Position numbers and translations under genes: made by a program
Assembly: GCA_030747775.1 (NCBI GenBank)
Contig: JASLKB010000005.1
Coordinates: forward strand, 1-33,785
Direction: 5' to 3'
From: Acidimicrobiales bacterium
GTDB lineage: Bacteria > Actinomycetota > Acidimicrobiia > Acidimicrobiales > MedAcidi-G1
Length of the DNA stretch: 33,785 nucleotides
The notes under the pieces: model-generated
Database searches by the model: none
Told to the model about the DNA's origin: nothing
Seen by the model: the letters and a program-made list of their open reading frames with translations, nothing else
Shown: positions 8,062 through 20,926 of the stretch, in pieces
Numbering within the stretch: the first letter of the stretch is position 1
How the letters are laid out: each line of letters opens with the position of its first letter

Positions 8062-9000
8062 GTGTCTGCGTCGCCCGCCCTCACCGTGTCCGGGTTGGGA
8101 AAGTCCTATGGCGACGTCCGGGCTGTCGACGACCTTTCGTTCCACGTCGAGCCCGGCGAGGTGTTCGCCCTACTGGGGCCTAACGGGGCCGGCAAGTCGA
8201 CCACAGTGGAGATCCTCGAGGGACATCGCAGTCGAGACGCGGGCACCGTTGAGGTGCTCGGCCACGATCCGGGTACGGCACCGGGCGGGTTTCGGGATCG
8301 GATCGGGATCGTCCTCCAGGAGGTCGGAGTCGAGCGCGAGCTGACTGTGCGAGAGGCGCTGGTCCACTACGGGGCCTGTTACTCGCGCCGTCGTCCGGTC
8401 GACGAGGTACTGGAACTGGTCGGGCTGGACGGCCTCGGCGACCGACGCACTCACCGGTTGTCGGGGGGTCAGAAACGGCGGATTGATCTGGCGTTGGGGA
8501 TCATCGGCGATCCGGACCTGCTCTTCCTGGACGAGCCAACCACCGGGTTCGACCCATCGGCTCGTCGCCAGGCCTGGGAGATGGTCGACGGCCTGCGGTC
8601 CCTGGGTACCACGATCGTGCTGACAAGCCACTACATGGACGAGGTCCAGGCACTGGCCGACCGAGTGCTGGTCATCGCCAACGGGCGGGCCGTGGCAGCC
8701 GGCACGCCCGACGAGCTGCGGGGTTCGATGGATCGAGAGACGGCTATCCGGGCCCGCTTCCCGATGGACAGAGAAGGCACCGTCACAGGTCTGCTGGAGG
8801 GCCTGGCCGGCCGGTCCACGGTCCGCGACGGGCGACTTGACGTACGGACCGAAGATCCGACCGCCGACCTCCACCGGCTCACCGGGTGGGCTTTGGAGCG
8901 GGGCGTTGCCCTTGACGACCTCGAGGTGGTGAGACCCACGTTGGAGGACGTCTACCTGGATCTCGTGGGCGGCGAGCCGGGGGAGGGGACTGATGGCTGA
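8062..9000 (+). CDS. ABC transporter ATP-binding protein, DrrA/CcmA-type exporter
   Basis: A 312-residue ATPase beginning MSASPALTVSGLGKSYGDV. Walker A GPNGAGKST (39-47), Q-loop Gln86 (IVLQEVGV), signature LSGGQKRR (133-140), Walker B LLFLDEPTTG (153-162) and the H-loop LTSHYMDE are intact. The C-terminal about 80 residues (LRGSMDRETAIRARFPM to LEDVYLDLVGG) are the extension typical of DrrA-like exporters. The next gene, overlapping by 8 nt, encodes the ABC-2 permease. Such pairs export drugs, lipids or polysaccharide precursors; the cargo is not indicated. Confidence 0.92.
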   Translation: MSASPALTVSGLGKSYGDVRAVDDLSFHVEPGEVFALLGPNGAGKSTTVEILEGHRSRDAGTVEVLGHDPGTAPGGFRDRIGIVLQEVGVERELTVREALVHYGACYSRRRPVDEVLELVGLDGLGDRRTHRLSGGQKRRIDLALGIIGDPDLLFLDEPTTGFDPSARRQAWEMVDGLRSLGTTIVLTSHYMDEVQALADRVLVIANGRAVAAGTPDELRGSMDRETAIRARFPMDREGTVTGLLEGLAGRSTVRDGRLDVRTEDPTADLHRLTGWALERGVALDDLEVVRPTLEDVYLDLVGGEPGEGTDG

Positions 9001-16608: not shown

Positions 16609-17097
16609 GTGATTGTCCGTCGAGCCGACCCACCTCAGCAACTCCTGTCGTGGCCCCTGCGTCGGGCATCCCTGCGTCGGGCATCCCTGCGTCGGGCATC
16701 CCTGCGTCGGTCGTCCCTGCTGTGGGCGTCGTTGCTGGTGGTGGCCTCGTGCGGGGGGTCGACACCTGTCGGCGATGGGCACGACCACGACCACGACACT
16801 GGGGTGCACGTCGTGGACCCCGTCGAGGTAGCCGTCGACGTCCGGTTCGAGGCCGAGGTTCGGGAAGGAAGGGTGGTGGGGGGCATCCCGAGGTTTGAGG
16901 TGTCGATCGGCGAGGTAGTAGCGGTGAGGATCACCAGCGACGTCTCCGATCAGTTGCATCTGCACGTGTATGACGCCATGGCTGACGTCGGGCCGGGAAT
17001 GGAAGCCGACCTGGTGGTCCGGGCCGACGTCCCGGGCGTGTTCGAGGCCGAACTGCACGGCTCGGGCTTGCGGGTGTTCGAACTCGAAGTCTCGTGA
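16609..17097 (+). CDS. His-rich lipoprotein with cupredoxin-like domain and repeat-expanded signal peptide
   Basis: The 162-residue protein starts with a long basic n-region made of tandem LRRAS units (residues 17-36), a hydrophobic LLWASLLVVAS and a lipobox Cys at 48. The mature protein opens with a GHDHDHD-type histidine cluster (from about residue 58) able to bind metal. The rest (about 70-162) is beta-rich: FEVSIGEVVAVRITSDVSDQLHLHVYDA, PGVFEAELHGSGLRVFELEVS. This resembles one-domain cupredoxin-like proteins but without an obvious complete blue-copper Cys/Met site. It overlaps the next membrane-protein gene by GTGA, so the pair probably works together at the outer face of the membrane. 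The function is not established. Confidence 0.7.
   Translation: MIVRRADPPQQLLSWPLRRASLRRASLRRASLRRSSLLWASLLVVASCGGSTPVGDGHDHDHDTGVHVVDPVEVAVDVRFEAEVREGRVVGGIPRFEVSIGEVVAVRITSDVSDQLHLHVYDAMADVGPGMEADLVVRADVPGVFEAELHGSGLRVFELEVS
16658..16732 (+). repeat. 15-bp in-frame tandem repeat in a signal-peptide coding region
   Basis: The unit TGCGTCGGGCATCCC occurs three times without change (16658-16672, 16673-16687, 16688-16702), a fourth time with changes (16703-16717) and then as a decayed copy to 16732. Each unit adds five residues (LRRAS). Because 15 is a multiple of three, gain or loss of units keeps the frame and changes only the length and charge of the n-region. Confidence 0.9.
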
Positions 17098-18413
17098 CCG
17101 GCCTGTTCACGCTGGCCCACGGGGTGGGAGGACGAACCGACCTGCCGCTGTCGGCCTGGCAGGCCGGATGGTCGGCTGCAGTGGCCCTCGTACTGTCCTT
17201 TGCCGCCCTTGGCCTGGCGTGGCACCAGCCACGTCTCCGGCGGGTGGCCCCTGGTCGCCCTCTGGGTTGGTGGCCGACGTTCCCGGTCAGCCTGGTGGGC
17301 TCGGTGGCTCGGTGGGCTCTGTTAGTAGGGGCCGTGGTTGTGGTGACCGCCGGCCTGGTCGGGGTGGACGACGTGGCTGCCAACGTGGCGCCGGTTGCTG
17401 TGTACGTGGTTTTCTGGGTGGGCGTGCCCCTGCTCGTGGTCCTGACCGGGCCGTGGTGGTCGACAGTGAGTCCCTGGGGGGCGCTGTTCCGGCTCGTGGA
17501 CCGGGTTCGAACTGGTCGTTCAGCCGGGAGTTGGGCGGTACCCGCTCCGGTAGGCGACGGCTGGCTCGCTGTGGTTCCGGTTGCTGCGTTCCTGTGGTTG
17601 GAGCTCGTGTATCACGATGGGGCGCGCCCGCGGGTCCTGGGTTGGGCAGCGTTTGGCTACACGTTGATGCTCCTGGGCGTCGCCCTCCGTTGGGGAACCG
17701 GTGCGGCCCGCTGCTCTGAGGGATTCGGGGTGTTGTTCGGGCTGTTGGCCCGACTCTCGCCGATCGGTCGGGCCCCGGGGACCGGCCGTCCGGTGCTGCG
17801 GCTTCCGCTGGTGGGCGCATCGGCGGACGACCTGCGCCCCTCGGAGGTGACGCTCCTGCTGGTGGTGCTCGGAGGGACGGCCTTCGACGGGGTATCGCGG
17901 ACCCGATTCTGGGCCGACGTCTCGGCTGGGTACGTGGGATGGGGTGGCACCGGGGTGGGTACCCTGGGACTGGTCTGGCTGGTGGCCGTGGTCGGGGTGG
18001 CCTGGCACCTGGCGTCACGGTTGGGCGATCGCCTGACCGGTGGGACGGGTTTCTCGGCGCGTTTCGGGCATTCGCTGCTCCCTATCGTGCTCGGCTACCA
18101 CGTGGCCCACTACTTCTCCTTGCTGGTTCTCGAGGGCCAACTGTTCGGGATCCGAGCTTCGGATCCCTACGGGCGGGGGTGGGACCTGTTCGGCACGGCT
18201 GGCGACTCGGTGGACTGGACCCGGGTCTCTCCGGGCACCGTGGGATGGGTGCAACTCGGAGCGATCGTGGTCGGTCACCTGGGAGGGGTGTTGCTAGCCC
18301 ATGACCGCTCGATCGAGTCGTGGCGGCCATCGGTCGCCCTGCGGAGCCAGTACCCGCTGCTGGTCGTCATGGTCGCCTACACGGTGGCCGGCCTGGTCTT
18401 GATGACGGGTTGA
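17094..18413 (+). CDS. Polytopic membrane protein, 'fenitrothion hydrolase' (FedA-like) family
   Basis: A 439-residue protein with roughly ten hydrophobic segments. It begins TGLFTLAHGVGGRTDLPLSAWQAGWSAAVALVLSFAALGLAW, which I recognise from actinobacterial membrane proteins often annotated as fenitrothion hydrolase. Conserved-looking polar features inside the membrane region are LVYHDGARPR, TAFDGVSRTRFW and LGYHVAHYFSLLVLEGQ, which could be metal or redox ligands. The annotation name comes from one organophosphate-degrading protein and is unlikely to be the native role. It starts at a GTG overlapping the lipoprotein stop by 4 nt, suggesting a lipoprotein-permease-like pair, perhaps for metal handling (inference). 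Confidence 0.7.
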   Translation: MTGLFTLAHGVGGRTDLPLSAWQAGWSAAVALVLSFAALGLAWHQPRLRRVAPGRPLGWWPTFPVSLVGSVARWALLVGAVVVVTAGLVGVDDVAANVAPVAVYVVFWVGVPLLVVLTGPWWSTVSPWGALFRLVDRVRTGRSAGSWAVPAPVGDGWLAVVPVAAFLWLELVYHDGARPRVLGWAAFGYTLMLLGVALRWGTGAARCSEGFGVLFGLLARLSPIGRAPGTGRPVLRLPLVGASADDLRPSEVTLLLVVLGGTAFDGVSRTRFWADVSAGYVGWGGTGVGTLGLVWLVAVVGVAWHLASRLGDRLTGGTGFSARFGHSLLPIVLGYHVAHYFSLLVLEGQLFGIRASDPYGRGWDLFGTAGDSVDWTRVSPGTVGWVQLGAIVVGHLGGVLLAHDRSIESWRPSVALRSQYPLLVVMVAYTVAGLVLMTG

Positions 18414-18426
18414 TCCGGAGGCCTTG

Positions 18427-18454
18427 CCAGTATCGAACAAATGTTCGATACTGG
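18427..18454. promoter_or_regulatory. LexA (SOS) box, 28-bp perfect palindrome, upstream of imuA'
   Basis: The core TCGAAC-AAAT-GTTCGA (18433-18448) matches the actinobacterial LexA consensus TCGAAC-N4-GTTCGA at every fixed position. The symmetry continues outwards to 13-bp perfect arms (18427-18439 and 18442-18454) around a 2-bp centre. It overlaps the predicted -10 (18447-18452) and ends four bases before the imuA' ATG, so bound LexA would block polymerase directly. The downstream genes are a known SOS-induced cassette, which makes the assignment strong. Confidence 0.93.
18447..18452 (+). promoter_or_regulatory. Leaderless -10 of imuA' (GATACT) inside the LexA site
   Basis: GATACT followed by six bases and the ATG at 18459, the same spacing as the other leaderless starts here. 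Its first two bases are the last two of the LexA core. Confidence 0.5.
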
Positions 18455-18458
18455 GGCG

Positions 18459-19262
18459 ATGTCTCGAGCCCTTCCCTCGGCCCTTCCCCGGAGCCTGCTG
18501 GCCGAACCCGACCTCTTCGACGACCTGCCCCCAGAGGAGCACTCACTCCCAACCCATGGGCTTTCGGAGGCTGGCCGACCGGGTCTGCCATTGCGGGTCG
18601 CCCCTACGTTGGCCGAGACAGCCCAACGGATCCGGCCGACCACGCTGGCCGTCGACCGGACCCTCCCCGTGATCGAGGCCCTGGCCGGGCTGTTCCCCGA
18701 CGGCCTCCGGCGGGGTGTCACTGTGGGGGTCTCGGGTGCCGGTGCCCGGTCGATGGCACTGGCCCTGATGGCGCGGGCCACCCAGACCGGTTCGTGGGTG
18801 GCGGTGGTGGGCACCAGTGACATGGGCTTGGCCGCGGCGTTCGAGGTCGGGGTAGCCCTAGAACGCCTCGTCGTGGTGAACGCCCCGCATCCCGACCAGT
18901 GGGCCTCGGTAGTGGCCACCTTCGTGGGGGCCGTGGACCTGGTGCTGGTGTCACCCGGGCACCGTCCGTCGACAGGTGACGCCCGGCGCCTCGCGGCTCG
19001 CTGTCGGGAACGGGGATCCGTGCTGGTCTGCTTGTTCCCAGAGGGCAGGTCTCCGGGTGAGGGATGGCCAGGTCGCATCGACCTGCAGTTCTCGATGGGC
19101 GCCGCGACCTGGTCGGGTCCGGATGCCAGCTCGGCCGGACCATTGGCCCGCCTCCGGTCCCGACGTGTCGAGGTGTCGGTTGGCGGACGGGGAGTGCCCG
19201 ACGACGGTCGTAGTGACGTGCTGCTCCTGCCGGATCCGACGGGTGTTCCAGCTCGCCTGTGA
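18459..19262 (+). CDS. imuA': ImuA', SOS mutagenesis accessory protein (RecA-like)
   Basis: A 267-residue protein from MSRALPSALP. The central part has a RecA/SulA-like fold pattern: LPVIEALAGLFPDGLRRGVTVGVSGAGARSMALALMARATQTGSWVAVVGTSDMGLAAAFEVGVALERLVVV, where the Walker-A-like loop is degenerate (GVSGAGARS, no Lys). In actinomycetes ImuA' bridges the translesion polymerase DnaE2 and ImuB for damage-induced mutagenesis. The next gene, overlapping by GTGA, is imuB, which secures the call. An in-frame ATG at 18441 lies within the LexA site and would put the start upstream of the -10, so ATG 18459 is chosen. dnaE2 is not in this window. Confidence 0.85.
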   Translation: MSRALPSALPRSLLAEPDLFDDLPPEEHSLPTHGLSEAGRPGLPLRVAPTLAETAQRIRPTTLAVDRTLPVIEALAGLFPDGLRRGVTVGVSGAGARSMALALMARATQTGSWVAVVGTSDMGLAAAFEVGVALERLVVVNAPHPDQWASVVATFVGAVDLVLVSPGHRPSTGDARRLAARCRERGSVLVCLFPEGRSPGEGWPGRIDLQFSMGAATWSGPDASSAGPLARLRSRRVEVSVGGRGVPDDGRSDVLLLPDPTGVPARL

Positions 19263-20926
19263 ACGGGGCGCCAGCGGCGACTGACTCCCCGGCCGCCGTC
19301 CGGACTCTGGTGGTGGGTTGTCCCGACTGGCCCCTGACCGCGTTGGGTGTGGATCCGGGTGAGCAGGCCCTGGTACTAGGAGCGGGACGAGTGGTGGCGG
19401 CGACCGGACCGGCCCGGGCGGTGGGGGTGGCACGGGGACAGCACCGACGTGAGGCCCAGTACCTCTGCCCTGAGGTTCGGGTGCTGGCCCGTGACGAGGC
19501 CCGCGAGGCCCGGGAGTTTGAGGTCGTGGCCTCGGCGCTGGGGGCGGTCACCCCGTGGGTGGAGGCTCGGTGCCCCGGCCGGTGTTCGTTCGGGGTGCTG
19601 GGCCCGGTCCGACTGTTCGGCGGGGAGGTAGCCCTGGTTCGCCACACCGCCGAGGTGGTGGGGGCCGCCGTCGACAGGTTGGAACTCGGGGCCGGCTCAC
19701 ATCCGGGGTGTCGAATCGGGGTGGCCGATGGGGCATTCGCCGCCGGTCTAGCGGCACGGGTTGGTGGAGTGGCCCCGGAGGGGGCGGTGGTCGTCCCCCC
19801 CGGGAGGAGCCCGGACTTCCTAGCCCCCCTGCCGGTGGCGGTACTGACGACTCCGCTGGCTGGTCGGGGAGCAGAGTTGGTCGACGTCCTGATTCGTCTA
19901 GGCCTGACCACCCTGGGTGCCTTCGCCGCGATCCCGGTGGCCGATGTGTCGGCCCGGTTCGGCAACGACGGCCTCGACGCCCATCGCCTGGCCTCGGGGG
20001 TCGACAACCGCCCGGTGGGTCACCGTTCGGCCCCGCCGGACCTGGCGGTGTCGGTCCCCTTCGACCCGCCGGTGGACCGCATCGATCGGGCCGCCTTCGC
20101 GGCGCGATCGGCGGCCGAAGCCCTCCACGAACGACTTTCGGCCCGGGGGATGGCATGCACCCGACTACTGGTAGAGGTCGAGACCGAACACGGCGAGCGG
20201 ATGTCCCGGAGGTGGCGTGACGAGGGGGTGCTGGGGCCGGTGGCGGTAGTCGACCGGGTGCGGTGGCAGTTGGAGGGATGGTTGCACGGCCCACCAGCGG
20301 TTCGTCCCACCTCGGGCATCGTTCTGCTGGTGCTGGTTCCTGATGAGGTGGTGCCAGCGGTGGGGCGTCAGCTGGGGTTCTGGGGTGGGGCCTCGGCAGC
20401 TGATGAGCGGGCCGGACGGGCGTGCGACCGGGTGGTCGGACTCCTGGGCCCCGGATCGGTGAGGGTTCCCGAGTGGCGGGGCGGCCGTGACCCCGATGAC
20501 CAGGTGGCCCTTGTGCCGTTTGTCGGGTTGACCGAGTCCCCGACACGGGTTGAACCATTGGAGGGGGCGCCACCCTGGCCGGGTGCCCTCCCGCGGCCGT
20601 CTCCGGCCGCGGTCCACACCGAGCCGGTGGCCATCGACGTGGTGGACGCCGGAGGGGTTCCGGTGACGGTGGACGGGAGGGGTGTGCTCTCGGCGCCGCC
20701 GGCCCGCCTGGTTCTCCCAGAACGTGTTTCATTAGGCGTCGATCCGGATACAGGCTCGGACCAGCGAGTTACGGCCTGGGCCGGCCCGTGGCCGGTCGAC
20801 GAACGCTGGTGGGATCCACTCCGCCGTAGCCGCCGGGCTCGACTCCAGATAGTGACGGCCGATGGCACGGCCCGTCTCGTGGCCTTAGCTGACGGCCAGT
20901 GGACGGTGGTTGCCACCTATGACTGA
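19259..20926 (+). CDS. imuB: ImuB, catalytically inactive Y-family polymerase-like protein
   Basis: A 555-residue protein with Y-family layout: palm/fingers from residue 15 (RTLVVGCPDWPLTALG), the FGVLGPVRLFGGEVALV segment, a helix-hairpin-helix-like LIRLGLTTLGAFAAIPVADVSARFG and a little-finger domain. Positions that hold catalytic acids in DinB are not acidic (LVVGCPDWP replaces the DxD-type motif; LFGG replaces SxDE), as expected for ImuB. A beta-clamp-binding peptide QLGFWG at 371-376 resembles QLPLWG of mycobacterial ImuB. The C-terminus WAGPWPVDERWWDP, then ARLQIVTADG, is the ImuB tail. It acts as the clamp-tethering hub of the DnaE2 mutasome and is co-translated with ImuA'. Confidence 0.9.
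   Translation: MNGAPAATDSPAAVRTLVVGCPDWPLTALGVDPGEQALVLGAGRVVAATGPARAVGVARGQHRREAQYLCPEVRVLARDEAREAREFEVVASALGAVTPWVEARCPGRCSFGVLGPVRLFGGEVALVRHTAEVVGAAVDRLELGAGSHPGCRIGVADGAFAAGLAARVGGVAPEGAVVVPPGRSPDFLAPLPVAVLTTPLAGRGAELVDVLIRLGLTTLGAFAAIPVADVSARFGNDGLDAHRLASGVDNRPVGHRSAPPDLAVSVPFDPPVDRIDRAAFAARSAAEALHERLSARGMACTRLLVEVETEHGERMSRRWRDEGVLGPVAVVDRVRWQLEGWLHGPPAVRPTSGIVLLVLVPDEVVPAVGRQLGFWGGASAADERAGRACDRVVGLLGPGSVRVPEWRGGRDPDDQVALVPFVGLTESPTRVEPLEGAPPWPGALPRPSPAAVHTEPVAIDVVDAGGVPVTVDGRGVLSAPPARLVLPERVSLGVDPDTGSDQRVTAWAGPWPVDERWWDPLRRSRRARLQIVTADGTARLVALADGQWTVVATYD

Follow-up and report, generated by a model that had tools for sequence, protein, structure and literature searches.

The short gap in front of imuA' in this Acidimicrobiales genome carries an inverted repeat built around an SOS box, which raises the question of whether this segment is the LexA operator and promoter of a mutagenesis operon, and whether the symmetry that extends beyond the box adds to LexA binding. 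The window, i.e. the whole stretch of DNA that was analysed, comprises 33,785 nucleotides. The LexA (SOS) box TCGAACAAATGTTCGA (positions 18433–18448, strand not assigned) was located by pattern match, is kept 5' of imuA' in relatives, and agrees with the actinobacterial consensus TCGAAC-N4-GTTCGA without a mismatch, as the initial annotation had claimed for the SOS core. It is the only zero-mismatch occurrence in the window, compared with an expectation from base composition of 0.001 per window and 0.07 per genome.

The box lies within an extended inverted repeat (18427–18454, strand not assigned) that also contains parts of both promoter hexamers. Its arms (18427–18439 and 18442–18454) are 13 nt each and perfectly complementary, with an unpaired 2-nt AA centre. 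The earlier description of a perfect 28-bp palindrome thus holds for the two arms and is slightly overstated at the centre, which leaves 26 of the 28 positions paired. The repeat ends four bases before the ATG at 18459, also as previously described. Within the window, arms of at least 10 nt separated by at most 6 nt are unique to this repeat, and arm length never exceeded 11 in 60 first-order Markov simulations of the window; the excess over chance is large. Symmetry alone could still be read as a chance or structural repeat without a LexA function; however, the exactness of the consensus, the restriction of exact copies to three sites genome-wide, each at an SOS gene, and the strong conservation of both the position and the sequence of the box make that reading extremely improbable.

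The downstream gene imuA' (18459–19262, plus strand) encodes a DnaE2-dependent mutagenesis accessory factor of the Rv3395c family (NF058630, E 1.5e-32, 112.4 bits against a cut-off of 65). Its end overlaps by 4 nt with imuB (19259–20926, plus strand; PF00817, E 4.1e-7), which encodes a Y-family polymerase-like protein, and the two genes presumably form one operon. The named relatives of imuB come mostly from Acidimicrobiia metagenome-assembled genomes, the closest being from an Acidimicrobiaceae bacterium. The genome contains two DNA polymerase alpha subunits, and dnaE2 is distinct from the replicative dnaE. It is found on a separate contig (C259) from imuA'B, and its product has the error-prone DNA polymerase PRK05672 as its best match when the first 500 residues are scanned.

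The gene upstream of imuA' (17094–18413) runs in the same direction and stops at 18413; therefore, the promoter is confined to a gap of 45 bp. A single match to a sigma-70-type promoter was obtained between 17900 and 19300, with a −35 element TTGCCA (18424–18429, plus strand) and a −10 element GATACT (18447–18452, plus strand) separated by 17 bp. The LexA box occupies this spacer and overlaps the −10 element by two bases, the GA of GATACT being part of the right half of the box, so that the initial annotation is borne out on this point. GATACT agrees with TATAAT at only four of six positions. Both elements are conserved among the 26 distinct same-family loci, TTG being present at the −35 position in 25 (and in 39 of 64 loci overall) and the TACT right flank in 24. 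A divergent, reverse-strand promoter was rejected: a reverse −10 element exists by symmetry, but the matching −35 element would be GCCCCA, and the upstream gene is co-directional with imuA'.

The start codon of imuA' (ATG, 18459–18461, plus strand) lies 6 nt past the −10 element. In 40 of 43 loci with a TACT or TAAT flank, the −10 element is followed after 5–7 nt by the ATG or GTG of a reading frame of 200–330 residues. With this spacing, the predicted transcription start falls on or beside the start codon and a Shine-Dalgarno sequence would not fit, which lends support to the earlier prediction of a leaderless mRNA. Leaderless initiation at ATG or GTG is common in mycobacteria, where it accounts for nearly a quarter of transcripts (PMC4633059). 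A leadered message, transcribed from a promoter further upstream or translated from the in-frame ATG at 18441 inside the box, is quite unlikely. The latter triplet would open a reading frame of 273 residues, but it lies upstream of the −10 element, and in relatives whose gap measures 5 nt the corresponding triplet falls outside the reading frame; it was therefore rejected as the imuA' start. The four loci that best match the Rv3395c model (L207–L210) do seem to start farther from the box, with a Shine-Dalgarno-like sequence in between. Here, however, a second promoter match is missing from the 17900–19300 interval, and the conserved gap leaves a ribosome-binding site no space. Taken together, the conserved box, promoter and spacing support a leaderless, LexA-repressed imuA'-imuB mRNA, and the likely start of imuA' is fixed for annotation.

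The initial annotation had made its reading depend on the presence of lexA in the genome and on a shared consensus at lexA and recA, and had proposed a scan for TCGAAC-N4-GTTCGA in front of lexA, recA and dnaE2. The genome assembly (2.26 Mb, 266 contigs, 92% complete) encodes RecA and one S24-type LexA (TIGR00498, E 7.8e-66) in which both the DNA-binding HTH domain (PF01726) and the S24 peptidase domain (PF00717) were matched. Boxes were counted by pattern search. Only three exact boxes are present genome-wide (0.07 expected), 5' of lexA, imuA' and dnaE2, and the box of recA has one mismatch. The shorter pattern CGAAC-N4-GTTCG occurs nine times compared with two for a control pattern, and five of the nine sites are located at lexA, recA, imuA', dnaE2 and a gene for a DEDD-exonuclease/GIY-YIG protein. 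The reading thus withstood both of the checks on which it had been made to depend.

The last of these, a DnaQ/UvrC-type gene (G000:C250 1–1371, minus strand; L016), also has a one-mismatch LexA box and is a probable further SOS gene. Its upstream region can be read as TTGCCT-N17-TTAGAT-N6-GTG, in which TTAGAT is a weak −10 element, and its GTG is possibly leaderless as well. The region upstream of lexA (L145; G000:C187, approximately 8360–8440) contains, in addition to the exact box, three weaker abutting boxes in 15-bp steps (−63, −48 and −33), and this array is kept in most of 26 relatives. On the reverse strand, the exact box of lexA occupies the spacer (16 bp) of a promoter, TTGACA-N16-TACAAT, that faces a divergent LysM-domain gene. 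This arrangement resembles the lexA/Rv2719c layout of M. tuberculosis.

Of 81 related genomes, 59 contain imuA'. The box stands just 5' of imuA' with zero mismatches in 26 of 27 same-family loci, the exception being a partial match that starts at residue 74. A wider set of 64 distinct box loci was drawn from Acidimicrobiia and from further actinobacteria, and includes a few second boxes in front of other genes. Across this set the core is nearly invariant, partly due to the search pattern, and is usually followed by TACT and preceded by TTGC nine bases upstream. Several further loci of the phylum sample (within L212–L229) show the leaderless layout with the box in the spacer. In distant actinobacteria such as Micromonospora, most of the loci examined have no such box at imuA'. 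Two other genera of the same family (g2 and g3; G017–G047) show an apparent joint loss of the mutasome: all 17 sampled genomes, several of which are incomplete, lack a match to imuA' and dnaE2 and keep LexA. A survey of the literature on Acidimicrobiia and LexA, judged by titles and abstracts, yielded no report on LexA sites in this class.

The dnaE2 promoter of this genome reads TTGAGT-N17-TACTGT-N6-GTG, which is the imuA' design shifted by 2 bp. Among dnaE2 relatives, 24 of 28 have a TTG −35 element and 27 of 28 have a TAnnnT −10 element spaced at exactly 17 bp; the start codon mostly lies 6 or 8 nt past the −10 element.

Whether the symmetric flanks contribute to LexA binding was assessed from column conservation, from flank shuffling and from published binding kinetics. 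The initial annotation took the extra symmetry as a sign of unusually strong binding, which would make the whole 28-bp palindrome, rather than the core of 16–18 bp, the operator and repression unusually tight. This is in line with the arrangement AGTA-box-TACT, which is common to imuA' and dnaE2 of this genome. At dnaE2, however, the left AGT is part of the −35 element (TTGAGT), and TACTGT on the right forms the −10 element. Column conservation was measured in a set of 23 non-redundant loci selected to share one promoter register, with TTG to the left of the box and TACT to its right. In these loci the left flank is near random at positions −2 to −5 (0.09–0.18 bits), the only conserved left position being −1 (A in 18 of 23, 0.82 bits). 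The right-flank TACT does not vary, as it is part of the −10 element and was one of the criteria for choosing the loci. The operator is therefore best described as approximately 18 bp, with the right extension being the −10 element. Of all 64 loci, 41 have TACT to the right of the box and only 18 have AGTA to its left.

Shuffling of the flanks in 63 loci gave less symmetry than observed (139 versus 167 pairs, P 0.0002) and fewer runs of at least five (3.2 versus 11); this excess is weak support for a longer operator, because the set mixes promoter registers and related species, from which it may stem. A few relatives contain very long palindromes with matched changes. The imuA' promoters of L028 and L057 form a perfect 52-bp palindrome across the box, both hexamers and the start codon, and L214 contains one of 36 bp; templated palindrome correction is one idea for their origin. 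The published affinities of M. tuberculosis LexA provide a further point of comparison, with a KD of 2.16 nM for the dnaE2 box, which is fully palindromic, and 0.98 nM for the lexA box, whose symmetry is imperfect; association is faster on the palindrome and overall affinity is similar (PMC8607333). The proposal that flank symmetry brings stronger binding is thus not supported, given a nearly unconserved left flank and a KD that is no tighter for a palindrome, although the symmetry may have a small effect. It is unlikely that the extended palindrome acts as a stronger operator, and this was rejected as the main reading on the lack of left-flank conservation within one promoter register.

The preferred reading, that the site is a LexA operator fused to the promoter of the imuA'-imuB operon and represses by occupying the spacer and the −10 element, is very probably correct. 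A LexA dimer on TCGAACAAATGTTCGA would fill the 17-bp spacer between TTGCCA and GATACT and cover part of the −10 element, so that RNA polymerase would be unable to bind. Self-cleavage of LexA stimulated by RecA would then free the promoter, and transcription would begin at the start codon to give a leaderless imuA'-imuB message. Release of dnaE2 would occur in parallel and, as dnaE2 has the same promoter design, the three mutasome parts would appear together. LexA binding, repression, induction and the transcription start at imuA' are predicted here from sequence features, and the position of the box suggests that repression may be very tight.

A RecA-independent damage response may exist besides SOS, as two tandem WYL-domain genes resembling pafB-pafC are present (G000:C219 8142–9343). 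PafBC-dependent promoters have the motif TTGTCRGTG-N8-TAnnnT. Inspection of the imuA' promoter by eye did not reveal this motif: TTGCCAGTA matches 7 of 9 positions, and ATGTTC is found at N8 instead of TAnnnT. The mycobacterial mutasome is under the control of both LexA and PafBC (PMC10421592), which together with the tandem WYL genes makes a second input via PafBC possible.

The mycobacterial SOS regulon uses the box TCGAAC-N4-GTTCGA, and its targets include imuA', imuB, dnaE2, lexA and recA (PMC8151990, PMC8607333). The system described here shares with it the consensus, the target genes, the separation of imuA'B from dnaE2 and the clustered boxes 5' of lexA. It differs in that imuA' is predicted to be leaderless, with the box in the promoter spacer, unlike the four loci nearest to the Rv3395c model with their apparent leader. 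LexA of Streptomyces venezuelae recognizes the motif tCGAAC-N4-GNNCGa and targets dnaE2, recA and lexA (PMC9380542); motif class and these targets are shared, whereas the S. venezuelae boxes are less perfect and vary in their distance to the start codon (−162 for recA, −68 for dnaE2; PMC9380542). Caulobacter, a proteobacterium, also has a LexA-controlled mutasome operon, as predicted here, but with imuABC all in one operon; the time to induction there reportedly does not track the properties of the LexA box (PMC12700426).

We slightly favor the view that the mutasome genes of Acidimicrobiia and some other actinobacteria share a rigid module, in which the box fills the promoter spacer and a leaderless start lies 5–8 nt past the −10 element, the registers of imuA' and dnaE2 differing by 2 bp. 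If so, this module would tie the release of LexA directly to leaderless translation, and would be unlike the layout with a leader that the loci nearest to mycobacterial imuA' suggest. The imuA' site is thus predicted to be part of the SOS regulon known from actinobacteria, and its predicted leaderless architecture is tidy and recurs across the lineage. The finding is clear but largely expected, and leaves the accepted view of SOS control unchanged. It indicates that the parts of a LexA-controlled mutagenesis pathway are retained in an uncultured lineage of Acidimicrobiia, and offers a sharp, testable promoter architecture, a box in the spacer followed by a predicted leaderless start, that is common to imuA'B and dnaE2.
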